Positions 2,532 through 28,121 of a stretch of 32,154 nt of DNA are shown here, piece after piece. Source of the stretch: a virus. A model generated the notes under the pieces. It was not told the DNA's origin, did not search any database, and saw only the letters and a list, made by a program, of their open reading frames with translations. The DNA is taken from positions 1 to 32,154 of the IMG/VR virus record IMGVR_UViG_3300006793_000136; one strand, 5' to 3'. The position numbers were made by a program, and so were the translations under genes. Positions within the stretch are counted from its first letter, which is position 1. Every line of letters starts with the position of its first letter.

Positions 2532-4103
2532 ATGTCAGACTTAATAGTCAAGAATCTTAATTTTGGGCAACAAGCTCAAAATCAAGTGTTTAAAGGAATT
2601 GATAAACTCACGCAAGCTGTTAGCTCCACTTTAGGGGCTAGTGGCAAGTGTGTTTTACTTGAAGATGATAAAGGTACCCCAGTTATAACTAAAGATGGGG
2701 TTACAGTAGCAAATTCAATAGTTTTATTAGATCCTGTAGAAAATATGGGTGCTACACTTTTAAAAGAAGCTGCAAGAAAAACAGTGAGCGAAGCAGGTGA
2801 TGGTACAACAACAGCAACAGTTTTAGCACACGCAATACTTGAAGAAGCTAAAAGTGCAGATATAAATTCTAGAGAATTAAAAGAAAATATTAATAAAGCT
2901 GTAAAAAAAGTAGTTAAATACTTAGAAAAAATTAGTATCCCTGTTAAAGGGGATATGATTGATCAAATTGCAACTATTTCTACTAATAATGAACCACAAC
3001 TTGGAAAAATTATTGGTGATGCATTCAGAGCAGTTGGTCAAACAGGGGTTGTGATGATGGAACATTCTTCATTACCTGAGACAGAAGTAGAGTTAGTAGA
3101 TGGAGTTCAGTATAATAAAGGTCTTACTAATCCTCATTTTATTACTAATAAAGCAAAAAAGACTGCAGAACTTGAAAAACCCGCAGTACTTTTAATAGAA
3201 TCTCCGATAGATAATATAAGACAAATTCAATCTATCTTAGAACATATTATAAAAAAGAATACACCTTTACTTATCATAGCAGATGTAGAAGCCCCAATAA
3301 TGGCTACTCTTGCAATGAATAAAACAAAAGGTAACATAAAAGTAAATATCATTAATGCTCCAACATTTGGAGTTAATAAAAGAGAAACATTAGATGATCT
3401 AGCTATGCTTACAGGAGCTACTGTCATAAATGAAGATCTAGGAGATGATATGGATATAATACAACCGGAATTTTTAGGGAGTTGTTTAAAGTCCGTTACT
3501 GATGAAAAAGATACTATTCTGCAAGTAGGTGAACCTACAGAAGCAGTTTTAAATGCTATAAAAGCAGTTAAAGAAGAATTAGCTAACAAACCTAATCCTG
3601 CACATCTTATAAGATTAGAAAAAAGATTAGCAAGATTATCAGCTAAAATAGCTATAGTAAAAGTAGGGGCAAATTCAGATATAGAATTAAAAGAAAAATC
3701 TGATAGAATAGAAGATGCAATTTGCGCGACAAAAGCCGCTATAAAAGAAGGTATTGTACCCGGTGGTGGTATAGCTCTACTAAACGCTGGACAAAATATT
3801 AAAACAAATACTGAAGGGGAGAAGATTTTATTAAAAGCAATAGAATCTCCATTTAGAGTTATTTTAGATAATGCTGGGATTGAATGTCCTAGTGATTCAT
3901 TGCCTAAAATAATGGGGAAATTACAAGGTAAAGGTTTAGATGTAATAACAGGTGAACCGGTTAATATGATAGAAGCCGGTATCATTGATCCTTTACTAGT
4001 AACTAAAAGTGCTTTGATAAATGCTGCTTCAGTAGCTGCAACGATATTATCAACAGATTGTGTAATCAATAATTTAAGAATTGATGAAAGCAATAGGAAA
4101 TAA
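2532..4103 (+). CDS. groEL: Phage-encoded GroEL chaperonin (60 kDa class)
   Basis: 523 residues covering all three GroEL domains. Nucleotide-site residues are kept: the TLG turn at 33-35, D55 in ITKDGVTVA, D90 in GDGTTTATVLA, D395 in RIEDAICATKAA, then VPGGGIALL and an IIDP near the end. The phosphate loop reads TLGASG instead of the usual TLGPKG. The apical domain is recognisable (DNIRQIQ..., PLLIIAD) but several hydrophobic residues that bind substrate and GroES in E. coli are replaced by eye alignment. The chain stops at ...NNLRIDESNRK and lacks the C-terminal GGM repeats. The last 20 bases overlap groES, so the order is groEL then groES, the reverse of the usual bacterial operon. Its likely job is folding phage structural proteins with the two GroES-like products encoded here. 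Confidence 0.97.
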   Translation: MSDLIVKNLNFGQQAQNQVFKGIDKLTQAVSSTLGASGKCVLLEDDKGTPVITKDGVTVANSIVLLDPVENMGATLLKEAARKTVSEAGDGTTTATVLAHAILEEAKSADINSRELKENINKAVKKVVKYLEKISIPVKGDMIDQIATISTNNEPQLGKIIGDAFRAVGQTGVVMMEHSSLPETEVELVDGVQYNKGLTNPHFITNKAKKTAELEKPAVLLIESPIDNIRQIQSILEHIIKKNTPLLIIADVEAPIMATLAMNKTKGNIKVNIINAPTFGVNKRETLDDLAMLTGATVINEDLGDDMDIIQPEFLGSCLKSVTDEKDTILQVGEPTEAVLNAIKAVKEELANKPNPAHLIRLEKRLARLSAKIAIVKVGANSDIELKEKSDRIEDAICATKAAIKEGIVPGGGIALLNAGQNIKTNTEGEKILLKAIESPFRVILDNAGIECPSDSLPKIMGKLQGKGLDVITGEPVNMIEAGIIDPLLVTKSALINAASVAATILSTDCVINNLRIDESNRK

Positions 4104-5691: not shown

Positions 5692-5913
5692 ATGCATCAA
5701 GATAAAGCATACAACAAAGCAAGTAAAGAAAAGAAAATAGGTATTGTAGGGGAATCTCATATATGGGACGGTCCTTTAAATCAAGAAGGTCGTATTCATG
5801 GAGTAGGATCTAGTTCAGGGATAACAGGTATGCAAGTATCTAAATTTCCTAAATCAGCCCTAGACATGCAAGTTAAATTACCTATAACTGCTATTGTACA
5901 AGGAGATAAATAA
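5692..5913 (+). CDS. Hypothetical small phage protein, 73 aa
   Basis: A soluble 73-residue protein: basic N terminus (HQDKAYNKASKEKK), then glycine-containing IGIVGESHIWDGPLNQEG and a Ser/Gly stretch, ending in predicted strands (MQVKLPITAIVQGDK). No domain is recognised. The start follows an A-rich leader (ATTAAACAAATAATC) without a Shine-Dalgarno. It belongs to the run of short, closely spaced genes between the chaperonin cluster and the holin. Confidence 0.6.
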   Translation: MHQDKAYNKASKEKKIGIVGESHIWDGPLNQEGRIHGVGSSSGITGMQVSKFPKSALDMQVKLPITAIVQGDK

Positions 5914-5930
5914 TTTTTAAAACAATAAAT

Positions 5931-6164
5931 ATGGAAAAAGGACATTTCGGAGAATATTCTGGTAATGCTAGACATTCTCATACACCTGTTACTAAAAGTA
6001 ACGTTCATGCATCTGAAAGAGATGATGCAGCACATATAGATTATCTTAAAAGAGATGTTCTTTGGGATAACAAACATCACCATAGTGATATAGACATGAC
6101 AGCTGATGAAAAACATATATCTAAATTAGCTGGAGATATTAAATACGATAAAAAACACCACTAA
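5931..6164 (+). CDS. Hypothetical histidine-rich small protein, 77 aa
   Basis: 77 residues with unusually many His (HSH, HHH, DKKHH at the C terminus) and many Asp/Lys, with no hydrophobic core long enough for a membrane span. No family recognised. The His clusters could bind metal ions, but no spaced catalytic motif is visible. One base separates its stop from the next gene's ATG. Small size, charge and neighbours suggest an accessory virion or regulatory protein. Confidence 0.6.
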   Translation: MEKGHFGEYSGNARHSHTPVTKSNVHASERDDAAHIDYLKRDVLWDNKHHHSDIDMTADEKHISKLAGDIKYDKKHH

Positions 6165-6165
6165 A

Positions 6166-6747
6166 ATGAGTAAAACTCCATTTTATAAAACGGGAATTAG
6201 TAATTCACCTTTTCATACACATGAACCCGGTCATAACGAAGATCCTAGAGCTGGATTAGATCCTAGATTTCAATATAGTGACAGTGGTAGACCTGTTAAT
6301 ATAATTGATTCGAGAGGAGGATGGAAACCAGGCCAAAAAACAGTAACAGATGCTAAAAGTGGAACAGGTATGTTTGATCCAAATTTAGAGAGTAATAAAT
6401 CTTGGGCAGGTTTTATAAGAACTGGGGGAACTGATGCGAGAAAAATAAGTGGAGAAGAATTTGGAAATCTTACATTTAAAGATGTACAAAAAATGAATTT
6501 ACAACAAATCAATATACCTGGTCAAGACCCTCAAAGATTTAGTGGTAGTACTACACGTCGTAGTAATACATTTGATAATTATGGTGGTAGTAGTAAATCT
6601 TTAACTAAAAGTGAATTTAAAAGTATGCAAAGAAGTTATAAAAAGCATTTATTTAACAGAACTCAAAATGCAACAATGCAACAAAATGCTATTGATTATG
6701 CTGCTGCTGATGGTGAACTTAGGAAACCTAAACCTATTAAAACGTAA
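6166..6747 (+). CDS. Hypothetical protein with KTPF/NSPF N terminus, 193 aa
   Basis: 193 residues, Gly/Ser/Asn/Arg-rich, probably with little regular structure. The N terminus MSKTPFYKTGISNSPFH has two copies of the [ST]PF motif seen in neighbouring products. The middle (GNLTFKDVQKMNLQQINIPG) may be helical, and residues from about 145 (LTKSEFKSMQRSYKKHL) form a basic helix. No enzyme motif. The shared N terminus and location in the late region suggest a minor virion component. Confidence 0.6.
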   Translation: MSKTPFYKTGISNSPFHTHEPGHNEDPRAGLDPRFQYSDSGRPVNIIDSRGGWKPGQKTVTDAKSGTGMFDPNLESNKSWAGFIRTGGTDARKISGEEFGNLTFKDVQKMNLQQINIPGQDPQRFSGSTTRRSNTFDNYGGSSKSLTKSEFKSMQRSYKKHLFNRTQNATMQQNAIDYAAADGELRKPKPIKT

Positions 6748-7672: not shown

Positions 7673-8023
7673 ATGGGAAAAGGTAAAAAAATGGCTGGTG
7701 GTTCATTCATGAGTAAACACGCTAAAAATCTATTGAACTATATGCCTATTGATGATAGAGCTGGTTCAGGTTCAGATTCAGATTTAAATTATAATGGTAC
7801 TCCATTACATCACGATAAACAATATCAACATACGCATGAAGGCGCTTGGGATAAAGTAAAAAATACAGTAAAAGATACTGTAGATTATAGAGAATCAGGT
7901 AATAATCGTTATGCATTTAAAGGTAAAATGAAATGGAAATCTGATGATTGGAGTGCTGGATATAGTGGAGTTCAAAAGCAATTTAAAAAAGTAGCTCCAA
8001 AATTAAGTGGAAGAAACGACTAA
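7673..8023 (+). CDS. Hypothetical basic protein, 116 aa
   Basis: 116 residues, Lys/Gly/His/Asp-rich. Opens MGKGKKMAGGSFMSKHAKN. The middle (GTPLHHDKQYQHTHEG) is His-rich, and AWDKVKNTVKDTVDYRES looks helical, like an amphipathic segment. No domain recognised. It lies between the HExxH protein and the holin-like protein with gaps of a few bases and an AAATAAATAAA leader. Confidence 0.55.
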   Translation: MGKGKKMAGGSFMSKHAKNLLNYMPIDDRAGSGSDSDLNYNGTPLHHDKQYQHTHEGAWDKVKNTVKDTVDYRESGNNRYAFKGKMKWKSDDWSAGYSGVQKQFKKVAPKLSGRND

Positions 8024-8026
8024 ATA

Positions 8027-8446
8027 ATGAGTAAAAAAAAGCCTTTTAAAGATACTGGGGTGGGTAAATTTCTTATTGAAAAAGCCCCTAGTATCTTAGG
8101 AATTGTTGGTGATGCTATATTACCAGGTAATGTAATCTCGGGATTAATATCCGGTAATAGTAGTTTATCTGCTGAAGATAAAGCTATAGCATTAAAAAAA
8201 CTATCAATTGAAAAGGCTGAAATAGATGGAACAACTAAAAGGTGGGTTGCAGATGCAAAATCAGGGGCCTGGTTAGCTTCTAATGTTCGCCCGCTGGTAT
8301 TAATATTTTTAACCGTAAGTTATGTAATAGGATGGTATTTAAGTTATCCCTTAGATTCTATCACTGGACTTCTTACAATAGTAATTGGAGGCTATTTCGG
8401 TTCTCGTGGAGTTGAAAAAGTATTCGGAAATAATAAACATAAATAA
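8027..8446 (+). CDS. Holin-like 3-TM membrane protein
   Basis: 139 residues. The N terminus MSKKKPFKDTG is followed by a hydrophobic segment at about 16-43, a charged loop (44-80) and two clear spans at about 89-106 (PLVLIFLTVSYVIGWYLS) and 111-126 (SITGLLTIVIGGYFG). The motifs W.ASNVRPL before the second span and GGYFGSRGVEKV at the end match the 3-TM holin family found in marine phages and gene-transfer agents, as I remember it. The likely role is forming inner-membrane lesions at the end of infection. No endolysin lies next to it here; the small HExxH protein two genes upstream is one unproven candidate partner. Confidence 0.75.
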   Translation: MSKKKPFKDTGVGKFLIEKAPSILGIVGDAILPGNVISGLISGNSSLSAEDKAIALKKLSIEKAEIDGTTKRWVADAKSGAWLASNVRPLVLIFLTVSYVIGWYLSYPLDSITGLLTIVIGGYFGSRGVEKVFGNNKHK

Positions 8447-12762: not shown

Positions 12763-15174
12763 ATGGTTAAGATTAACTATAATAGTGCTTTCCCCGATCA
12801 GGTGGTACCTGAAGAAGAGAAAAAATCTAGAGAGTATGGGTTACAAGTGGCTCAAGCTATTGAATATGAGTGGTTTAGAAATTCTAGTGGTCAAAATAGA
12901 TTTATTAATAATTTTCAAAATTTTAATAGATTAAGATTATATGCTAGAGGAGAACAACCAGTTCAAAAATATAAAGATGAATTAGCTATAAATGGTGATT
13001 TATCTTATCTTAATTTAGATTGGAAACCTGTACCAATTTTATCTAAATTTGTTGATATTGTAGTTAATGGAATGACAGATAAAGGATATGAAATAAAATC
13101 ATACGCACAAGATCCTTTTGCCACTAAACAACGTACTAACTATGCAGCTAACGCTTTAAGAGATATTCAAAATAAAGCAGAAATAGATCAATTAACACAA
13201 ATTACAGGAAGAAGTTATTATTCATCATCAGATCCTGAAAGTTTACCTGAAGATCCTGGAGAATTAGATCTTTACATGCAACTTACATATAAACAAAGCA
13301 TTGAAATAGCTGAAGAAGAAGTTATTAATAATGTATTAGATTATAATAAATATGAAGAAACTAAAAAAAGATTAGCATATGATTTAGCTGTTTTAGGAAT
13401 TGCTTGTGTTAAAACTAATTTTAATTTATCTGAAGGGGTAACTGTAGATTATGTTAATCCCGCAAATATAGTATATTCATATACAGATGATCCTAATTTT
13501 GAAGATATTTATTATGTAGGAGAAATAAAAAATATGTCTCTTTCTGAGGTTAAAAGGCAATTTCCTTATTTAACTGAAAGTGAATTAGAAGAAATTCAAA
13601 AATATCCTGGAAGAAATTCTTACGTAGAAAACACGTGGTGGGGACAAGAGACTAAAGACCAAGTTCAAGTTTTATTTTTTGAATATAAAACATATCAAGA
13701 TCAAGTATTTAAAATAAAACAAACAGAACAAGGTTTAGAAAAAACATTAGAAAAACCCGATACTTTTAATCCTCCACCAAATGATAATTTTGATAGAGTT
13801 TCTAGATCTATTGAAGTTTTATATTCCGGCGCTAAAGTATTAGGTCTTGCTAATAATTTACTTCAATGGGAATTAAGTGAAAATATGACAAGACCTTATG
13901 GTGATACTACTAAAGTAAACATGAATTATGTTATTAGTTCCCCAAGAATGTATCAAGGTAGAATTGAATCTTTAGTTAGTAAAAGTGTAGGTTTTGCTGA
14001 TATGATTCAATTAACGCATTTAAAACTACAACAAGTATTATCAAGAATGGTGCCAGATGGAGTATATCTAGATGTAGATGGACTTGCTGAAGTAGATTTA
14101 GGAAATGGTACTAATTATAATCCCTCTGAAGCGCTTAATATGTATTTTCAAACTGGTAGTATAGTTGGAAGATCTTTAACACAAGATGGGGAATTAAATA
14201 GAGGTAAAGTTCCAGTTCAAGAATTACAGACATCGAATGGAATGTCTAAAATTCAAGCTATGATTCAAACTTATCAGTATTATTTACAAATGATAAGAGA
14301 TGTCACCGGGCTTAACGAAGCAAGAGACGGTAGTATGCCAGCTAAAGATTCCTTAGTAGGATTACAAAAATTAGCTGCTGCTAATTCTAATACTGCAACA
14401 AGACATGTTCTTCAATCGCTTATGTATTTAACAGTAAGGGTGTGTGAAAATATTAGTTTGCGAGTTTCTGATATGCTTCAATTTCCTCTTACTCAACAAA
14501 GTCTAATGACGAGTATTAACACTTTTAACACTCATACTTTAAATGAAATACAAAAGTTAAGTTTACATGATTTTGGAATATTTTTAGAATTAGAACCCGA
14601 AGAGGAAGATAAAACAAATTTAGAACAAAATATACAAATAGCATTACAAGCTGGTAATATTGGATTGGAAGATGCTATAGATTTAAGAGAAATACGAAAT
14701 ATTAAATTAGCTAATCAAAGTTTAAAATCTCGTCAAAAGAAAAAACAAGAATTAGAAAGAGTACAGCAATTAGAAAATATAGAAGCTCAAGCTGCTGCTA
14801 ATGCTGAAGCAGCTGAAAAAGCAGCAGTAGCAGAAGTACAAAAACAACAAGCTTTAGCCGAAACTGAAATACAAATAGAACAAGCTAAATCTCAATTTGA
14901 AATTACTAAATTAGAAAGAGAAGCTGAAATTAAAAAACAGTTAATGGCAGAAGAATTTAATTATGATATGGAGTTAGCCCGACTTCAAGGCCAAGTACAA
15001 CAACAAAAAGAAGGAGCAATAGAAGATCGTAAGGATCAAAGAATTAAATTACAAGGTACCCAACAAAGTGAAATGATAAATCAAAGACAAAATGATTTAT
15101 TACCAAAAGATTTTGAATCTGCAGGTAATGATAATTTAGATGGATTTGGATTAGAACAGTTTGGACCATCTTAA
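12763..15174 (+). CDS. Portal protein
   Basis: 803 residues. Residues 1-100 carry a block I recognise from portals of crAss-like and marine podoviruses: EYGLQVAQAIEYEWF, NRLRLYARGEQ.VQKYKDELAING, LDWKPVPILSKFVDIVVNGM. The middle has the alpha/beta portal core (EEVINNVLDYNKYEETKKRLAYDLAVLGIACVK, then YVNPANIVYSYTDDPNF). A late segment (RDVTGLNEARDGSMPAKDSLVGLQKLAA) fits the crown/clip region. Residues about 662-740 form a long Gln/Glu/Lys coiled coil, and the C terminus is a Gln/Asn-rich tail. It should form the dodecameric ring for DNA entry and tail attachment. The ATG directly follows the TerL stop with no spacer. Confidence 0.93.
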   Translation: MVKINYNSAFPDQVVPEEEKKSREYGLQVAQAIEYEWFRNSSGQNRFINNFQNFNRLRLYARGEQPVQKYKDELAINGDLSYLNLDWKPVPILSKFVDIVVNGMTDKGYEIKSYAQDPFATKQRTNYAANALRDIQNKAEIDQLTQITGRSYYSSSDPESLPEDPGELDLYMQLTYKQSIEIAEEEVINNVLDYNKYEETKKRLAYDLAVLGIACVKTNFNLSEGVTVDYVNPANIVYSYTDDPNFEDIYYVGEIKNMSLSEVKRQFPYLTESELEEIQKYPGRNSYVENTWWGQETKDQVQVLFFEYKTYQDQVFKIKQTEQGLEKTLEKPDTFNPPPNDNFDRVSRSIEVLYSGAKVLGLANNLLQWELSENMTRPYGDTTKVNMNYVISSPRMYQGRIESLVSKSVGFADMIQLTHLKLQQVLSRMVPDGVYLDVDGLAEVDLGNGTNYNPSEALNMYFQTGSIVGRSLTQDGELNRGKVPVQELQTSNGMSKIQAMIQTYQYYLQMIRDVTGLNEARDGSMPAKDSLVGLQKLAAANSNTATRHVLQSLMYLTVRVCENISLRVSDMLQFPLTQQSLMTSINTFNTHTLNEIQKLSLHDFGIFLELEPEEEDKTNLEQNIQIALQAGNIGLEDAIDLREIRNIKLANQSLKSRQKKKQELERVQQLENIEAQAAANAEAAEKAAVAEVQKQQALAETEIQIEQAKSQFEITKLEREAEIKKQLMAEEFNYDMELARLQGQVQQQKEGAIEDRKDQRIKLQGTQQSEMINQRQNDLLPKDFESAGNDNLDGFGLEQFGPS

Positions 15175-19718: not shown

Positions 19719-20942
19719 ATGGCACAACCTAACGGAGGATTAATCACAGAAACTAATTCGCAATATTATGCAGGTGCTCAAATGTTTGTAGCTACTGCTG
19801 ATCAAACAATTTTTACGGCTACTTTTAACACAGAAATAACTTTTGGAAGTGCTGATCCTACATCTGAATATTACAATCAAAATAATTTTAGGTTATATAC
19901 TAGCGCAACAGGTAATCCAGGAACTTTTGCTGAATATACTTCAGCATATACAGTATTAAATAATGTATTTACTTTACCAGCACAAGCAGTTGGTACTTAT
20001 GTAGTTATACAATTACTAACTGAAAGTGGAGGTAATTTTGGAAATAAAGATGCTTACGGAAAAGTTACTCAACATAATTATAATAATTATTCTTATATAA
20101 AAGTAGAAGATTTAATTAATAACTTCTTAGTGGCTTATGTCGGCGCGGGTAAATTAATTTCAAGTGTTAAAAAAACAGATGTTATTTTTCATACAAAAAG
20201 AGCATTACAAGAATTTAGCTATGATACATTGAGAAGTATAAAATCTCAAGAACTAACTATACCAGCTAGTTTAAGCGTACCTATACCACAGGATTATGTT
20301 AATTATGTTAATGTATCATGGGTGGATGAGTTAGGTGTTACGCATGTAATATATCCAACTACTTTAACTACTAATCCTTATACTAAACCTATTCAAGATG
20401 CTGCCGGTATACCTACACAAGATAATGAAGGAAGAAATTTAACAGGAACATCTATAACTGAAGAGCGTTGGGATAGTCAAAATACGGAATTATTAAAAGA
20501 AATAAGAGATGATATAACAGGTAGATTAATATCTGATGGATTATATGGTTTATATGGAAATTGGTTTTATGGATATGGTCAACGTTATGGTATGCAACCA
20601 GAAACTTCTCAGATAAATGGTTGGTTTACAATTAATGATCGTAACGGAATGTTATCTTTTTCTAGTGATTTAAAAGACAAGGTTATAGTATTAGAATATA
20701 TATCAGATGGATTAGGGTATGAAGAAGACATGAGAGTTCCTAAATTAGCTGAAGAAGCGGTTTATGCTTATTTAAGTCATGCTATTTTAGCTAGTAGAAT
20801 AAACCAGCCAGAATATGTAGTTCAAAGATTAAAAAGAGAGAAAAGTGCTAAATTAAGAAATGCAAAAATAAGATTATCTAATATTAAATCAAATGAGTTT
20901 GTTCAGATAATGAGAGGGAAATCTAAATGGCTTAAAAATTAA
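19719..20942 (+). CDS. Tail tubular/head-tail connector protein (P22 gp4 / T7 gp11 type)
   Basis: 407 residues. An N-terminal beta domain (residues 1-120, ATADQTIFTATFNTEITFG...YTVLNNVFTLP) precedes the connector core. Key blocks: YIKVEDLINNFLVAYVGAGKLI, FHTKRALQEFSYDTLRSIKSQ (from about 156), LSVPIPQDYVNYVNVSWVDE, QINGWFTINDRNGMLSFSS and IVLEYISDGL. The C terminus has VQRLKREKSAKLRNAKIRLSN...MRGKSKW. These are characteristic, from memory, of the tail-tubular/gp4-like family in crAss-like and marine podoviruses. It should form a 12-fold ring joining portal to tail. A KLRNAKIRL helix at the end may insert into the portal clip. Confidence 0.8.
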   Translation: MAQPNGGLITETNSQYYAGAQMFVATADQTIFTATFNTEITFGSADPTSEYYNQNNFRLYTSATGNPGTFAEYTSAYTVLNNVFTLPAQAVGTYVVIQLLTESGGNFGNKDAYGKVTQHNYNNYSYIKVEDLINNFLVAYVGAGKLISSVKKTDVIFHTKRALQEFSYDTLRSIKSQELTIPASLSVPIPQDYVNYVNVSWVDELGVTHVIYPTTLTTNPYTKPIQDAAGIPTQDNEGRNLTGTSITEERWDSQNTELLKEIRDDITGRLISDGLYGLYGNWFYGYGQRYGMQPETSQINGWFTINDRNGMLSFSSDLKDKVIVLEYISDGLGYEEDMRVPKLAEEAVYAYLSHAILASRINQPEYVVQRLKREKSAKLRNAKIRLSNIKSNEFVQIMRGKSKWLKN

Positions 20943-20947
20943 ACTAA

Positions 20948-23900
20948 ATGGCAGAAGCTAAAAATTCTTTTATTAAGTCCAAAATGAATAAAGACCTAGA
21001 TGCTAGGTTATTACCAAATGGTGAATATCGTGAAGGAATTAATATACAAGTAAGTAAATCCGAAGGAGCTGATGTAGGCGCTTTAGAGAATGTATTAGGT
21101 AACATAGAGCTTGTGGATTTAAAGACATTAAGTGGCTGTAATTGTAATCTTACTACTATTGGTTTATATACTGATGAAGTTAATAATAATATTTATATAT
21201 TTTTAACTGATTATGATGAAAGATTAGCCCCTGGTTATAATACTCAATTATTAAATTACTCTTCAAGTGCAAATAATTATATTTATGTACATAATACTTC
21301 AAATAAAGAAACTGATTTATTACTTACTGGTCCATTTTTAAATTTTTCTACAACTCATCCAATAGTATCTGTAAATTTATTAGAAGGAATATTGTTTTGG
21401 ACAGATAATAGAAATCAACCTCGTAGAATAAATATTGATAGAGCTAAAACTCTAAATTACTATTCAAATGAAGATCAAATATCAGTAGCTACGTATGCAC
21501 CTTTTCAAGCTATTGAACTATATCAACAACGGGCTGCAGAATATTGGCCAAATGGTGGTTCGGCAATAACTACTGGAACTGCTACAGCTGGTCAATCTTT
21601 GATATTATTAAGCGCAGATAATAGACTGGGTTTAGCTAATGAACTGGATGTAGGAAAAACATTAGTGGGGGCTTTAATTACATCAGATGTTGTTGGTGCT
21701 ATTCCGAATAATAGCGCTTTTTGTTGTTATTCTAATGGTAATCAAATACAATTAATAGATAGAAGTGCATTACCAGGAGCAGAAACACCAGTAAATTTAT
21801 TGCTAGATTTACCTCCAGGATCAAAAATTTATTTAAATCAAAACTTAAATCCTATAACAGGACCAACGCTAGGTACTGGTTTAGGTACTGATAATTGGGT
21901 TACAAGTATGGAGGATGCTAGTTCTCCTATGAATCCAGGTGGTACATATAACGCTGGATATCCAGGTCTTACAACAAATCCAAATTATAACCCAAAATTT
22001 AATGGAGATCCTGATTTCTTAGAAGATAAATTTGTAAGATTTAGTTATAGATTTAAATTTGAAGATGGAAATTATTCTTTAATGGCTCCATTTACTCAAG
22101 CAACTTTTATACCTAAACAAGATGGTTATTTTATAGGAGAAACAACTCCAGTAGGTATGACAACAGATGAACAAGCTACATACAGAAGTACTGTGGTAGG
22201 TTTTATGGAAAATAAAGTAAATAATATATTTTTACAAATACCTTTACCTTTAGACAAAGATAATAATGGTATTGCAGCTAACGTTTTATTTAGTGCAATG
22301 CAAGTAGATGAAATTGAAATTCTATATAAAGAATCTGATACTTTAGAAATTCAGGTTGTAGATACAATTCCACGAGTTGGAACAAATGGATATGAAAATT
22401 TTGGAACCGATACTGTTATAGAATATAATTATCAAGGAGATAAACCTTATAAAACATTACCAAGTAGTGAAATAACTCGTGTGTATGATAAAGCTCCAGT
22501 TAGAGCTCTTGGACAAGAAATTATTAGTAATAGATTAGTTTATAGTAATTTTCAAAACAAACATACTCCACCTGAAACATTAGATTACAATGTAGGTATA
22601 GGTGATAAGTATAGTGTATTTCGCGTAAATGATCCTACAGTTCCACGTCCTATAGAAAGAACGGTATCTCGGGAATATCCTATGCATACTGTTAAACAAA
22701 ACAGGAATTACCAAGTAGGAGTTGTTTTATCTGATAGATATGGTAGAAGTTCCACCACTATTTTGTCATCAGTCAATACACAAGCTCTTGATGGGGAATT
22801 AACATTAGTAGGAGACACTATTTATTTTCCTTATAATAATATTTCTAGTTCTACACCTTCTGATAATTTAATACAAAAATGGCCAGGAGATTCTATAAAA
22901 GTATTGTTTAATACTCCAGTTGAAGAAAACGTACCACATAATTTAAGTACAGGTTGGCCAGGTTTATATAATGGAGATCCAACGTCTGATGATTATAACC
23001 CGTTAGGATGGTATTCTTATAAAATTGTTGTTAAACAAACTGAACAAGAATATTATAATGTGTATCTACCAAGTATTATGAATTTTTATCCTAATCTTAC
23101 TGCTGCACAACAATCTACTGATGCTCCTGATCCTGTGAATACAGTTTCTTTTACTACTTTATTAAATGATAATATAAATAAAGTACCTAGAGATTTAACC
23201 GAAGTAGGACCTGAACAAAAACAATTTAGAAGTTCTGTACAATTATATGGAAGAATTGCTCCGCATGCTAACGCTGCACCTACTTATAATTATCAATTTA
23301 ATCCGGTAGATGCCGCAACAAGAATAGCTATTTCTGACACAGTATCTACTATTGCAGATCAAAATTATCTTTTTGATAATACTGGTAATATAAAATATGG
23401 TTCAATATATCAAACCGTATCAAACCCTTCTTTAGCACGTATATCTATTACTTCAAACCCTATTGGTACTTCGGCTAAAACAGCTGTAGCGGATGATCAA
23501 ACATCATGGTTAAGTGTTTATGAAACTCAACCTGTAGAATCAAGATTAGATATTTATTGGGAAACCTCTTCCAGCGGTACTATAGCAGAGCTAAATGAAG
23601 CTATAAAAACAGGTAGTTCAGCTATTAAAAACTTTACTACTGATCAAGATATGGCAGCTGCTCCTAAAACATGGACATTTAATTTAGCAGAAGACATAAC
23701 ACCCGGCGAATCACCTACAGCAACTTATTCTAATGGAGTATATACAGCGAAACCATTTTTTCCATACGTTCAAGATGCTTCGGGTATAAAGTTAATGGTA
23801 GTAAATAGTGAGATCGATACAACGTCAGGTTTCTGGGTAACAGATGGTGAAAATCAAGATGTAACAGAAAAATTTGAATTAATAAGAACTGCAGGTAATG

Positions 23901-26314
23901 GTGTTAATACACCTGATACTTATGTTATTCAAATATCTAGTGGAACATATTTTTATTATAATACAAACTCTCCAGTAAAAGATTCTTTTACATTTAATTT
24001 TGATGTAAAAAACAATGATAGTGGTTCACAACAAGGTATAGTTACTAAAATTGCTATAACTGAAAAGTTATTTAATGTAAAACCGGAAATAACATGCCCA
24101 AGTGAAGGTATTGTAGTAGAACCTGGTACTAGTCCTTTATATACTTTTGAAGGTGTAAATGGAAGCGCTTGGAATGAACAAAATCAAAATGATTTAACTT
24201 GGAGAATAATATCTCAGGATCCTATAGGAGATGGTGTTCCAGAATTAGTTATAAATAATAGTGGAGAAGTTACTGATCCTACTGATACATTAAATGTACC
24301 AGTAAGTTTAGAAATAGGTCTTACAGATGCTGGTACTAACGAAACCACTATAGGTGGTATTGCTGAAGGAACTTGTGCTCCAGAAGTAAGTGGAAATACA
24401 GGTTATGAGACTCTTCCATTAAACAGTACGTTTGGAAGTACTAAAAATATGTGTATTAATCAAGCCGCTGAATCTTCTGGTTACTATTGGGCTGCACCTA
24501 CTCCTGACCCTGTAGAAAGTACCCCTTTACCTCCTATAAATAGAGAAGTTGTAAGTGGTTTAGGACTAGGTACAAGTTTACCAAGTTATGCCACAAGCGC
24601 TGCAGCTGATGGTTGGCAATGGAATAATTCAAATAGAAATGCACAAGTTGAAATGAATGCTACAAATTCTGGTTTAGGAACAGTAGTGAGTTCAGGAAGA
24701 AGTAATTGTACTACTAATGTTATTCCAGTTCCTGAAGGAATTACAAATGGTAGTGCTTATATAATAGTAGATTTTGAATTAGGAAATTATGGTTCAGCCC
24801 CTAATGATAGACCAGGGGTTATATGGCCCACTTATTTACAATATAGAGAAAATAGCAGTGCAACCTGGATGACAGCCAAAGATATAGAAGGTAATGATAT
24901 AAAATTTGGAGGTGCACAAGCTGATGCATATTACAAAGATAGCGTAGGAAGTGGGGTAACAATTGGAGGTTCCCAATTTATTGGTGGTTCAGCATTTTAT
25001 ACTACTGGTGTTAAAGATAAATTAAGTAATGCAATTACTGATGAAGGTAGTGGTGCAGACCCTGCTACAGCGGATTGTTTTGAATCATGGATGGATTCAA
25101 GAGAAACTCAAGTAGATCCTTTATTAAACAGTTTAGGTAGAAAATTATTTGTTGTAGGTAGAAATCAAGCTTATAGAGATCCAGGAGGTACTGCTCCTAC
25201 AGATGCTCCAGATAGATTTGGGGAATATAGATTAATTACTCGTTATCCTTATGGTACTAATATTTCACCTACTACTTCGTCATCTGTAACTAATCCTAAA
25301 ATACCAACATTAACTCCATTTAAAACTCCACCATTTCCTTATGATAATTATACAACAGCTCAACAAAATCAAAGAGTATGGTTAAGTTTTGGAGATTTTT
25401 ATAATCCAACTCAATTAGTATCTTTTTATAGTAATGGTTCTGGTAGTGATTCAGGAGCTCCCGCATCTTTTGCTTATAGAGTAACGGCAGCTTGTGATGA
25501 TAGAACTAGTGCGGCTGGTGCATCTATAGATCAGGTTGTTTATGCAAGAGAATGGGGTTTTAAATATGTGTCTCAATTTTATACCGATCCTCAATTAACT
25601 AGTGGTTGGTCTCCAGGGGCTACAAATAAATGGTTTGGTTATACAGCTGTTTCTGATACATCATTAAATACAAAATGGGGAAATGAAAATAGTTGTACTA
25701 GAGACGGTGCCCCTTTATGGACGTGTCCTACTTGTCCTGCTCCTGATTATGTTTATGGTACTACTATGACACAAAAAAATATGAGGTGGACTGCTCAATT
25801 TGATCAAATGGGTAAAAAAATTATTCGTACTGCTGAACCTTGTGTAGCTAATTTAGATCCAGCTACTGGAGGTAATAATAACCAATGTAATTCTCCTGCT
25901 GCAGCTTATCGATTTGGTATAATGCAGGTATATGCTACAGGTAATGATAAAATAGAATTTTTACAAACTTTAGATGGATTAGCTTCGGCATCTAGCACAG
26001 GTTGTAGTATATATACGTTATTTCAAAATATAACTAATGGTAAAGGTGCTGAAGGTACTCCGGCAGCTGTGGTTGGAGTTAGTGAAATAACAGTAAGGTC
26101 TCCGAATGCTTCTAATTGTTATGAAAAAATTGGATCTGTAGGATTTGGTGGTGGATCTAGAGCAACATATCAGACCGTTAATTTAGGTGGATATAGTGGA
26201 ACTTATGTAACATTGACTATAGATGGAGCTACTTCAGCTTTAGATGCTTTTCAAAACGGAAAAGCTAACGGTGGACAAAATTGGTATCTTCAAGGGGTTC
26301 CTGCTTGTCCTTAA
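20948..26314 (+). CDS. Tail stabilization/nozzle protein, large N-terminal part (1788 aa)
   Basis: 1788 residues. The opening NSFIKSKMNKDLDARLLPNGEYREGINIQV...VGALENVLGN is the signature I know from the phage 'stabilization' (nozzle/muzzle) protein. Blade-like segments follow (GILFWTDNRNQPRRINIDRA, RFSYRFKFEDGNYSLMAPF, ISNRLVYSNFQN, QVGVVLSDRYGRSS). Then come the conserved FYPNLTAAQQS, FRSSVQLYGR and LSVYETQPVESRLDIYWETS around 700-870. From about 900 the sequence changes to Ig/cadherin-like beta domains. From about 1140 to the end there is a Cys-containing, Thr/Gly/Asn-rich region with CPTCPAPD and many paired Cys. The usual C-terminal part of this family is encoded by the next ORF, so the gene is split. 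It likely forms the distal tail with receptor or periplasmic contacts. Confidence 0.85.
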   Translation: MAEAKNSFIKSKMNKDLDARLLPNGEYREGINIQVSKSEGADVGALENVLGNIELVDLKTLSGCNCNLTTIGLYTDEVNNNIYIFLTDYDERLAPGYNTQLLNYSSSANNYIYVHNTSNKETDLLLTGPFLNFSTTHPIVSVNLLEGILFWTDNRNQPRRINIDRAKTLNYYSNEDQISVATYAPFQAIELYQQRAAEYWPNGGSAITTGTATAGQSLILLSADNRLGLANELDVGKTLVGALITSDVVGAIPNNSAFCCYSNGNQIQLIDRSALPGAETPVNLLLDLPPGSKIYLNQNLNPITGPTLGTGLGTDNWVTSMEDASSPMNPGGTYNAGYPGLTTNPNYNPKFNGDPDFLEDKFVRFSYRFKFEDGNYSLMAPFTQATFIPKQDGYFIGETTPVGMTTDEQATYRSTVVGFMENKVNNIFLQIPLPLDKDNNGIAANVLFSAMQVDEIEILYKESDTLEIQVVDTIPRVGTNGYENFGTDTVIEYNYQGDKPYKTLPSSEITRVYDKAPVRALGQEIISNRLVYSNFQNKHTPPETLDYNVGIGDKYSVFRVNDPTVPRPIERTVSREYPMHTVKQNRNYQVGVVLSDRYGRSSTTILSSVNTQALDGELTLVGDTIYFPYNNISSSTPSDNLIQKWPGDSIKVLFNTPVEENVPHNLSTGWPGLYNGDPTSDDYNPLGWYSYKIVVKQTEQEYYNVYLPSIMNFYPNLTAAQQSTDAPDPVNTVSFTTLLNDNINKVPRDLTEVGPEQKQFRSSVQLYGRIAPHANAAPTYNYQFNPVDAATRIAISDTVSTIADQNYLFDNTGNIKYGSIYQTVSNPSLARISITSNPIGTSAKTAVADDQTSWLSVYETQPVESRLDIYWETSSSGTIAELNEAIKTGSSAIKNFTTDQDMAAAPKTWTFNLAEDITPGESPTATYSNGVYTAKPFFPYVQDASGIKLMVVNSEIDTTSGFWVTDGENQDVTEKFELIRTAGNGVNTPDTYVIQISSGTYFYYNTNSPVKDSFTFNFDVKNNDSGSQQGIVTKIAITEKLFNVKPEITCPSEGIVVEPGTSPLYTFEGVNGSAWNEQNQNDLTWRIISQDPIGDGVPELVINNSGEVTDPTDTLNVPVSLEIGLTDAGTNETTIGGIAEGTCAPEVSGNTGYETLPLNSTFGSTKNMCINQAAESSGYYWAAPTPDPVESTPLPPINREVVSGLGLGTSLPSYATSAAADGWQWNNSNRNAQVEMNATNSGLGTVVSSGRSNCTTNVIPVPEGITNGSAYIIVDFELGNYGSAPNDRPGVIWPTYLQYRENSSATWMTAKDIEGNDIKFGGAQADAYYKDSVGSGVTIGGSQFIGGSAFYTTGVKDKLSNAITDEGSGADPATADCFESWMDSRETQVDPLLNSLGRKLFVVGRNQAYRDPGGTAPTDAPDRFGEYRLITRYPYGTNISPTTSSSVTNPKIPTLTPFKTPPFPYDNYTTAQQNQRVWLSFGDFYNPTQLVSFYSNGSGSDSGAPASFAYRVTAACDDRTSAAGASIDQVVYAREWGFKYVSQFYTDPQLTSGWSPGATNKWFGYTAVSDTSLNTKWGNENSCTRDGAPLWTCPTCPAPDYVYGTTMTQKNMRWTAQFDQMGKKIIRTAEPCVANLDPATGGNNNQCNSPAAAYRFGIMQVYATGNDKIEFLQTLDGLASASSTGCSIYTLFQNITNGKGAEGTPAAVVGVSEITVRSPNASNCYEKIGSVGFGGGSRATYQTVNLGGYSGTYVTLTIDGATSALDAFQNGKANGGQNWYLQGVPACP

Positions 26315-26351
26315 CAAGGTAATAATAAAAATAAATGTGCAATTATAAATT

Positions 26352-27833
26352 ATGGCTGCAACAGTAGAAGTAAAATTTTTTAATTCCTTCGTATTAAGAA
26401 AGACTTTAAATGACGGAACTAATCCCGCACCTGCAGAATGGAATGGTTCTAGAGGGGATTTAACATATCCTGCTATAGGTGGTAATCCTGATAATGAACA
26501 AGATTGGGCAGTAGAAGAAGCAAGAATTAGAGGAGGGTATAACAATACTTATGTAGGTCAAGGAGTTAAAGCATATTTAGTAGAAGATAATCCTAAATCA
26601 TCTGTAAGGATTAATTCTATGATTTATTCTGGTATATTTAATGCCAGAACAGGTATTAATGATACTAATGTTTTTTCTGTAGGAGAAGATATAATTAAAA
26701 GTGTAGATCCAGCAAATGGTAGTATACAAAAAATTTATGCTGAAGATACTAATTTAATAATATTTCAAGAGAAAAAAGTTAGTAGAGCACCTATTGATAA
26801 AGACATTATATATACAGCCGAGGGATCTACTAACGTAACTACATCTAATAATGTTATAGGTACAGTTCAAGCTTATGTAGGTAATTTTGGAATTAGTAAA
26901 AATCCTGAAAGTTTCGCTGTGTATGGTAGAAGAAAATATTTTACCGATAAAGATAGAAATGCAGTAATGAGATTATCACAAGATGGTCTTACTGAAATAT
27001 CAAACTATGGTATGATTGATTTCTTTAGAGATCAATTTGGCACAATGGGCGAAGGTAAACTAACTGGTGGTTGGGATATATATAATAAACAATATGTTTT
27101 GTCTATTCAACCAGAAAGTTCTTTAGTACCTTATAAAACATTATCTTTTGACGAAAACATACAGGGCTGGACAAGTTTGTATACTTACAAACCAGGCATG
27201 ATGTTAAGTTTAAAAAATAAATTTTATACTACAGGTCCATCAAGTACAGCTGCTACAGATAGTGCAAGTTTATATCAACATTATATTGCCACCCAACCAA
27301 GAGGTAATTTCTATGGTTTAAATAATGATTCTTCTATAGAATTTATTTTTAACCCTGATGTTAGTCTTTCCAAAGTATTTAAAACAATTAATTATGAAGG
27401 TAGTAACGGATGGGAGGTTACAAGTTTTATATCTGACTTAACAGGTATAGGATCAGTTAATACTGATTTTGAAGGATATGCCACTACAAATACTAGTGAT
27501 ACTATTGCTTCTATATATAGTTATAATGAAGGAGCATATGATAATTATGGAAATCAATTTGCTAATTTAGATAATAATCCAATTACAGCTAATACTACAG
27601 CTTTAATACCTCCAATAAATCATGCTGGTTTTGATAGGAAAGAGAATAAATATATGGCTAACTTAGTTAATAATAGTACAGCCGCACCAGGAGAAGTAAT
27701 ATTTGGTAACCAAATGACAGGTATTAAAGGTTATTATGCAACAGTTAAAATATCTACTGATACATTAACGGATCCGGGAGGAATGAAGGAATTATTTGCC
27801 GCCTCATCGGATTATGTCGAATCCGCATATTAA
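26352..27833 (+). CDS. Tail stabilization/nozzle protein, C-terminal part as separate ORF
   Basis: 493 residues. Blocks ARIRGGYNNT, KAYLVEDNPKSSVRINSMIYSG, IFNARTGINDTNVFSVGEDI, VDPANGSIQKIYAEDTNLIIFQEKKVSRA, GNFGISKNPESFAVYGRRKYFTDK and RNAVMRLSQDGLTEISNYGM resemble the C-terminal section of the single long stabilization protein I recall from related phages. Here it has its own ATG 37 bases after the upstream stop and in a different frame. A beta-propeller-like fold is likely, assembling with the preceding product. The leader AAATAAATG...AATTATAAATT is A-rich, consistent with independent initiation. Confidence 0.75.
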   Translation: MAATVEVKFFNSFVLRKTLNDGTNPAPAEWNGSRGDLTYPAIGGNPDNEQDWAVEEARIRGGYNNTYVGQGVKAYLVEDNPKSSVRINSMIYSGIFNARTGINDTNVFSVGEDIIKSVDPANGSIQKIYAEDTNLIIFQEKKVSRAPIDKDIIYTAEGSTNVTTSNNVIGTVQAYVGNFGISKNPESFAVYGRRKYFTDKDRNAVMRLSQDGLTEISNYGMIDFFRDQFGTMGEGKLTGGWDIYNKQYVLSIQPESSLVPYKTLSFDENIQGWTSLYTYKPGMMLSLKNKFYTTGPSSTAATDSASLYQHYIATQPRGNFYGLNNDSSIEFIFNPDVSLSKVFKTINYEGSNGWEVTSFISDLTGIGSVNTDFEGYATTNTSDTIASIYSYNEGAYDNYGNQFANLDNNPITANTTALIPPINHAGFDRKENKYMANLVNNSTAAPGEVIFGNQMTGIKGYYATVKISTDTLTDPGGMKELFAASSDYVESAY

Positions 27834-27842
27834 AAAAATAAC

Positions 27843-28121
27843 ATGTCAGAATTAAGCGAAGATACTAAGTTTCAAGTTAGTATAAAAACATTAGTTGCTA
27901 TTGGAGTGGCTTTGGCTACTTTAGTAGGTATGTATTATACTTTACAAGAAGAAATAGAAGAAGCAAAACTTTTACCCGAACCTCCGGTTTCGAGAACAGA
28001 ATATGATTTGAAAGATGAATTAATACGTGAGTCAATAATGAACACAGAAGAAAAAGTTCAAGAAAATTCACAAAAATTAGATAAAATAGATGAAAAATTA
28101 TATGAAATAATTAAAAAATAA
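27843..28121 (+). CDS. Membrane-anchored coiled-coil protein, 92 aa
   Basis: 92 residues. One membrane span lies at about 13-33 (SIKTLVAIGVALATLVGMYY), preceded by a short acidic N terminus. After a Pro-rich hinge (LLPEPPVSR) comes a charged helix of about 50 residues with heptad character (VQENSQKLDKIDEKLYEII). Proteins of this layout occur near the tail genes of marine phages. Possible roles are a spanin-like or holin-accessory membrane protein or an ejection-related factor. No lipobox is present. It starts 9 bases after the preceding stop and ends 4 bases before the next ATG. Confidence 0.65.
   Translation: MSELSEDTKFQVSIKTLVAIGVALATLVGMYYTLQEEIEEAKLLPEPPVSRTEYDLKDELIRESIMNTEEKVQENSQKLDKIDEKLYEIIKK

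Follow-up and report, generated by a model that had tools for sequence, protein, structure and literature searches.

Two adjacent open reading frames in a 32 kb piece of an uncultured phage genome with podovirus-type tail genes (32,154 nucleotides; hereafter the window) are the two halves of one crAss-like tail nozzle ("muzzle") gene, ORF1 (20948..26314, + strand, 1788 aa) being its beginning and ORF2 (26352..27833, + strand, 493 aa) its end. The two are very probably translated separately and act as two chains of a single tail muzzle: ORF1 would retain the first part of the propeller and carry an added module at its free C-terminus, ORF2 would provide the other propeller blades, the crAss_MUZ_C domain and the final strands of the distal domain, and the chains would fold together non-covalently, one pair per hexamer subunit, by analogy with the crAss001 structure.

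The structural genes of the window are arranged in the order P22-like portal, several virion proteins, ring-type protein, ORF1 and ORF2. The portal gene lies at 12763-15174 and scores under the Pfam cut-off, yet it has full-length matches to annotated phage portals. The upstream tail ring-type protein (19719..20942, + strand, 407 aa) is matched by phrog_13977 over residues 117-395 only. Muzzle genes adjoin a ring/tail tube protein gene within the structural module both in the window, where the phrog_13977 protein is the neighbour, and in three relatives (L001, L002 and L004). The cultured relatives of the portal, ORF1 and ORF2 are phages of Flavobacteriia (Cellulophaga, Flavobacterium, Tenacibaculum and Maribacter), each at less than 60% identity. 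Elsewhere in the window, the phage encodes a GroEL-type chaperonin of 523 aa (2532-4103; Cpn60_TCP1, E 3e-63) and a 586 aa protein (373-2133), possibly a fibre or adhesin, that combines a glycine-rich domain with a concanavalin A-like lectin domain. A small ORF 3' of ORF2 (27843-28121, ~92 aa) has one hydrophobic segment, a coiled-coil-like tail and no Pfam match; its product may be a membrane protein of the holin or spanin type.

ORF1 and ORF2 match opposite ends of the same virion structural protein profile, phrog_14478, which spans 1474 positions: ORF1 residues 5-192 align with positions 2-180, at the profile start, and ORF2 residues 76-359 align with positions 942-1226. With hhalign, ORF1 1-612 was matched to residues 1-400 of the phi38:1 muzzle (E 9e-44) and ORF1 1-167 to residues 1-152 of crAss001 gp44 (E 5e-8), and profile comparison placed ORF2 80-362 on gp44 1003-1290 (E 8e-8). 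ORF2 also contains the Pfam domain crAss_MUZ_C (PF25729, E 9.6e-13) at residues 316-438 (27297..27665, +). An AlphaFold2 model of ORF2 has a moderate mean pLDDT of 67.6, and its residues ~115-365 (26694..27446, +), where pLDDT is mostly 80-90 with local dips, consist of strands predicted to form propeller blades. In Foldseek searches this model retrieved the phicrAss001 muzzle first (7qol_P, E 7.6e-13; 7qok_A, E 2.7e-12; TM 0.38 and 14% identity to 7qol), followed by podovirus nozzles including those of SU10, P22 (gp10) and T7. Direct sequence searches of the PDB with either ORF brought no useful match. The nozzle-type propeller fold is predicted by structural match of the model for the ORF2 half and by sequence for the ORF1 half, in which residues ~1-885 (20948..23602, +; omega 0.06-0.2) are likely to be the inherited muzzle core, comprising a ring-joining part, the first propeller blades and an IG1/IG2-type region. 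Given that ORF1 matches the start of the family and ORF2 its end, neither chain is expected to contain the whole propeller. An earlier note on this DNA had proposed a nozzle-family gene split in two, with its usual C-terminal blocks in the second ORF; both points were borne out, and its boundaries, gap length and change of frame between the ORFs proved exact.

The reference structure for this family is gp44 (MUZ) of Bacteroides phage phicrAss001 (Crassvirales, Steigviridae; PDB 7QOK, 7QOL), which has a ring-joining domain and a seven-bladed propeller like that of the T7 nozzle, together with the domains IG1 (163-292) and IG2 (318-1021), the latter containing a 'crass fold' at 453-904 and 940-1012 that has been proposed to touch the cell (PMC10172136). 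The N-terminal part, propeller half and C-terminal domain of gp44 are all detectable here, in that order, and gp44, the best structural match of ORF2, is likewise encoded directly 3' of the ring protein gene; however, gp44 is one chain, whereas the window has two and a module with no detected gp44 counterpart. The closest sequence homologues of both halves are muzzle-type proteins of phi38:1 (Pervagoviridae), elemoviruses, phi13:2/Gundel (Pachyviridae) and Manatee Spring ctfjg026. Most of these share the portal ... ring - muzzle order of the window, but their muzzles are single ORFs that lack the insert of ~900 aa, and their ring proteins are ~100 aa shorter. The nozzles of T7 (gp12), P22 (gp10) and SU10 resemble ORF2 in overall propeller/nozzle fold by Foldseek. 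To our knowledge, these nozzles are single chains without a crass-type or cadherin-like distal module.

Beyond the window's group, homologues are encoded by one ORF: phi38:1 (1324 aa), elemoF (1493 aa), Gundel_1 (1386 aa), phi13:2 (1613 aa), Manatee Spring ctfjg026 (1551 aa) and crAss001 gp44 (1371 aa). In a first sample, restricted to uncultured relatives with both genes readable, 78 of 78 possessed two ORFs, as does the window. A widened search yielded 321 non-redundant muzzles, which were sorted by ORF state: 162, including the window, are cut at the window's site, 151 are single and eight are broken elsewhere. ORF2 starts at one alignment column throughout, and in all 162 the C-block begins no more than a few residues from where ORF2 starts. 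This start falls on the strand 'MPAIIEVKYFNSF' (in the spelling of relative L051) and corresponds to 'PAIIDLDFFNCY' of one-ORF muzzles and to 'LPAIIDLDFFNCY' in phi13:2, where it is internal to the single protein. The single-polypeptide rule of the muzzle/nozzle family, which is general rather than strict, is therefore broken in every member of the split clade.

Two FastTree trees, neither formally rooted, were built from the muzzle C-block and from the neighbouring ring protein. In both, a single branch (support 100; lengths 0.80 and 0.98) separates the 97 representative split rows from all single-ORF rows, and intermediates on this long branch were seen neither in the trees nor among the 162 split relatives. 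The simplest reading of these sequences is that the split arose once, without re-fusion in the sample. Two ORFs are always present within the clade and one outside it, indicating an old, fixed clade feature and not a local accident; the objection raised in the earlier note, that homologues might always be two ORFs, applies inside the clade but fails outside it. The same two groups are separated by a second change, as the ring-type protein has a median length of 407 aa in the split clade versus 307 aa in one-ORF relatives. Other interruptions were also observed. The muzzle gene of Maribacter phage Panino (L003) is broken around 8000-8130, inside the propeller half, and those of L134 and L144 near residue ~357, in the N-terminal part; these may be genuine further splits or may result from frame errors. 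In L148/L200, which represent the same contig, a one-ORF-type muzzle is interrupted near residue 574 by ~864 nt (5753-6619), possibly an intron or inserted element.

The direction of change appears to be fission, given that all outgroups are single chains and that one-ORF muzzles surround the single split branch, as the earlier note had supposed. The reverse, in which two ORFs are ancestral and one-ORF muzzles are fusions, draws on the lack of formal rooting and is quite improbable: crAss001, Pachyviridae, Pervagoviridae, elemoviruses and the T7/P22/SU10 nozzles all have single chains, a single branch sets the split rows apart, and all of the deepest, longest-branched rows are among the one-ORF forms. 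As the window is a single metagenome fragment, two ORFs might also result from errors of sequencing or assembly or from a single gene in decay, and the earlier note had allowed that the stop and frame change near 26314 could be such errors. The probability of this is negligible, since the same break occurs in 162 non-redundant relatives from many samples and purifying selection acts on both sides of it. Recurrence at an identical residue in these relatives also excludes chance.

ORF1 ends with TAA and is followed by 37 bases (26315..26351, +), an A-rich leader for ORF2, before the ORF2 ATG in a different frame. Across the 162 split relatives the median gap is 33 nt, and the two ORFs are adjacent in all but a few. 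Five relatives carry a whole extra ORF between the halves: L308 (6340-6841, 159 aa), L315 (5857-6895), L319 (5965-6922) and L320 (5903-6895), the last three of 312-339 aa, and L349 (6473-7000, 145 aa). The extra genes of L315, L319 and L320 are related to one another, with common ends 'KVPIINTTI', and resemble structural or fibre proteins. A gap that is short and conserved in most relatives, mostly 29-41 nt, could suit a programmed frameshift, ribosome bypass or readthrough that fuses both ORFs into one polypeptide. Frameshifting or bypass, however, requires a fixed phase, and gap length modulo 3 is distributed as 53/62/47 among the 162, so that the relative frame is random and a programmed frameshift is excluded. 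Moreover, the ORFs never overlap, ORF2 begins with ATG in every case, and the 30 bases 5' of its start are A-rich, as they are before many other genes of the window. Together with the genes lying in the gap, this leader indicates that ORF2 initiates separately; fusion by any of these routes is extremely unlikely, and on sequence grounds ORF1 and ORF2 are read as two independent genes.

The site of the break also carries an insertion. In one-ORF muzzles the block 'IFETEP..FYEIGRTYEI.NG.H' mostly lies ~5-26 aa before the residue equivalent to the ORF2 start. A simple motif search missed this block in split ORF1s and profiles were used instead; these identified 'VYETQPVESRLDIYWETSSSGTIAELN' (ORF1 residues ~857-885; 23516..23602, +) as its homologue and the last inherited block before the insert (P 90%, E 1.6e-6, a good but not overwhelming match). 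Because whole-profile alignment of ORF1 with one-ORF muzzles is unreliable in the middle of the protein, segments were compared one by one: 1-612, 560-780 and 760-930 were found in one-ORF muzzles, whereas 900-1300, 1280-1660 and 1600-1788 had no match there. Blocks that are neighbours in one-ORF muzzles are thus far apart here, so ~900 residues have been added between them, with the stop and start at the far edge, as the earlier note had suggested. The block is present in 161 of 162 split relatives, with 248-985 residues between it and the stop. None of the 162 split relatives was seen to lack an insert, nor was any single-ORF relative seen with a comparable insert at this site, the largest distances from block to start being ~76-96 aa. 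The order of events in the earlier note, insertion followed by fission, gains no support from these sequences: inserts shorter than 248 aa are missing from the split relatives, and the long branch holds no intermediate.

The insert comprises a beta module at ORF1 residues ~886-1640 (23603..25867, +), with tandem Ig/cadherin-like domains first and then unmatched beta domains, and a C-terminal extension at residues 1641-1788 (25868..26314, +) that is limited to the window's subclade, being present in 33 long relatives and absent from 44 short ones. The AlphaFold2 model of ORF1 840-1788 (mean pLDDT 80.9) is nearly all beta, and its confident fold begins at ~890, in agreement with the homology boundary of the insert, with pLDDT mostly 80-95 from there on; its beta domains are predicted to fold independently. 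The PDB matches listed by Foldseek for the insert are cadherin tandem domains (E ~1e-6, TM by query 0.1, 10-17% identity), and Pfam Big_9 was detected in four of 43 members, suggesting a likeness of fold to Ig/cadherin domains and not kinship. No convincing counterpart of the insert turned up in the viral structure library, and no muzzle, that of crAss001 included, was among the PDB matches listed for ORF1 840-1788. The earlier note had described Ig-like and Cys-rich adhesin domains at residues ~900-1788. The all-beta, Ig/cadherin-like character is upheld by the model, but the Cys-rich label was overstated: the ~900-residue insert has 14 Cys, against four in the rest of ORF1 and none in ORF2. 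A Cys-rich adhesin was rejected, as none of the Cys columns is invariant across 43 relatives.

The ratio dN/dS was determined for the window against six relatives, four more distant and two nearest. Against the four more distant, inherited ORF1 gives 0.15-0.20 and the insert 0.29-0.36, the C-terminal extension reaches 0.56-0.94, and ORF2 stays at 0.06-0.15; for the two nearest, values in the ORF1 core and ORF2 are 0.03-0.08. Both chains are thus constrained, with omega of 0.03-0.2 in the core and ORF2 denoting strong purifying selection, and the free C-terminal end of ORF1 is the most changeable part and the fastest-evolving, to which domain replacement and misalignment may contribute. The edges on either side of the break are also weakly modelled. 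ORF1 840-889, the inherited edge, is the main low-confidence stretch of the ORF1 840-1788 model, and ORF2 1-114 (26352..26693, +) is conserved in the alignment but not folded alone (pLDDT mostly <50) and is presumed to form the rest of the IG2/crass region together with ORF1. In the models these edges behave as if each needs the other chain, although low confidence can have other causes. Sequence comparison gave no significant placement of the break site in the residue numbering of crAss001.

By analogy with known muzzles, both chains most likely co-assemble into one hexameric muzzle. The gate-bearing propeller and the IG2-like platform would be closed only when both chains are present, and the module, with its variable tip, would hang from the tail end and contact the cell surface, this contact triggering gate opening. 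Given its distal position in the muzzle and its rapid evolution, the module may serve in receptor or envelope contact, as the earlier note proposed. A plausible course would be a big insertion in a surface loop, a break there that was harmless, and growth of the resulting free C-terminus; the extension in the window's subclade plausibly agrees with this insertion-then-growth course, without proving it.

A functional role for the fission itself is unlikely though not far-fetched: ORF1, tethered to the cell through its distal module, would be pulled out of or against ORF2 to open the gate, the ORF1 C-terminus would be a plug-in site for exchangeable host-contact domains, and the ring protein, longer by ~100 aa, would be co-adapted. 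Less probable still is that the halves have parted functionally, with ORF2, alone or with another protein, forming a reduced nozzle and ORF1 becoming a separate tail fibre or adhesin that docks elsewhere. The almost unconstrained evolution of the free ORF1 C-terminus and the insertability of genes between the halves would fit such a parting, but within the subclade most of ORF1 1-~600 (except for the variable stretch ~200-320) keeps the muzzle core, with 58-94% identity to the window, the first blades are missing from ORF2, whose N-edge is disordered when alone, and no other first-half muzzle was seen. A single muzzle built from two chains is accordingly the preferred reading.

Open-access papers yielded no description of a muzzle or nozzle encoded by two genes, and no member of the split clade was seen among 50,697 phage records, from which the window's own genome or near records were possibly left out. 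The split group is a large, uncultured, environmental (marine) group of crAssphage-related phages, and its two-chain state is a variation on a protein already known and does not amount to a novel type of system. For annotators, it provides a reason against labelling ORF1 and ORF2 as unrelated hypothetical proteins. It also singles out the segment of the tail tip that most likely governs host contact in uncultured environmental crAss-like phages. The nozzle/muzzle gate is among the core components of short-tailed phages, and the structures matched here have it as one chain; a split that arose once and spans a whole clade, if true, would mean that two chains can make up the gate, and would provide a natural example of a two-chain DNA-release gate.
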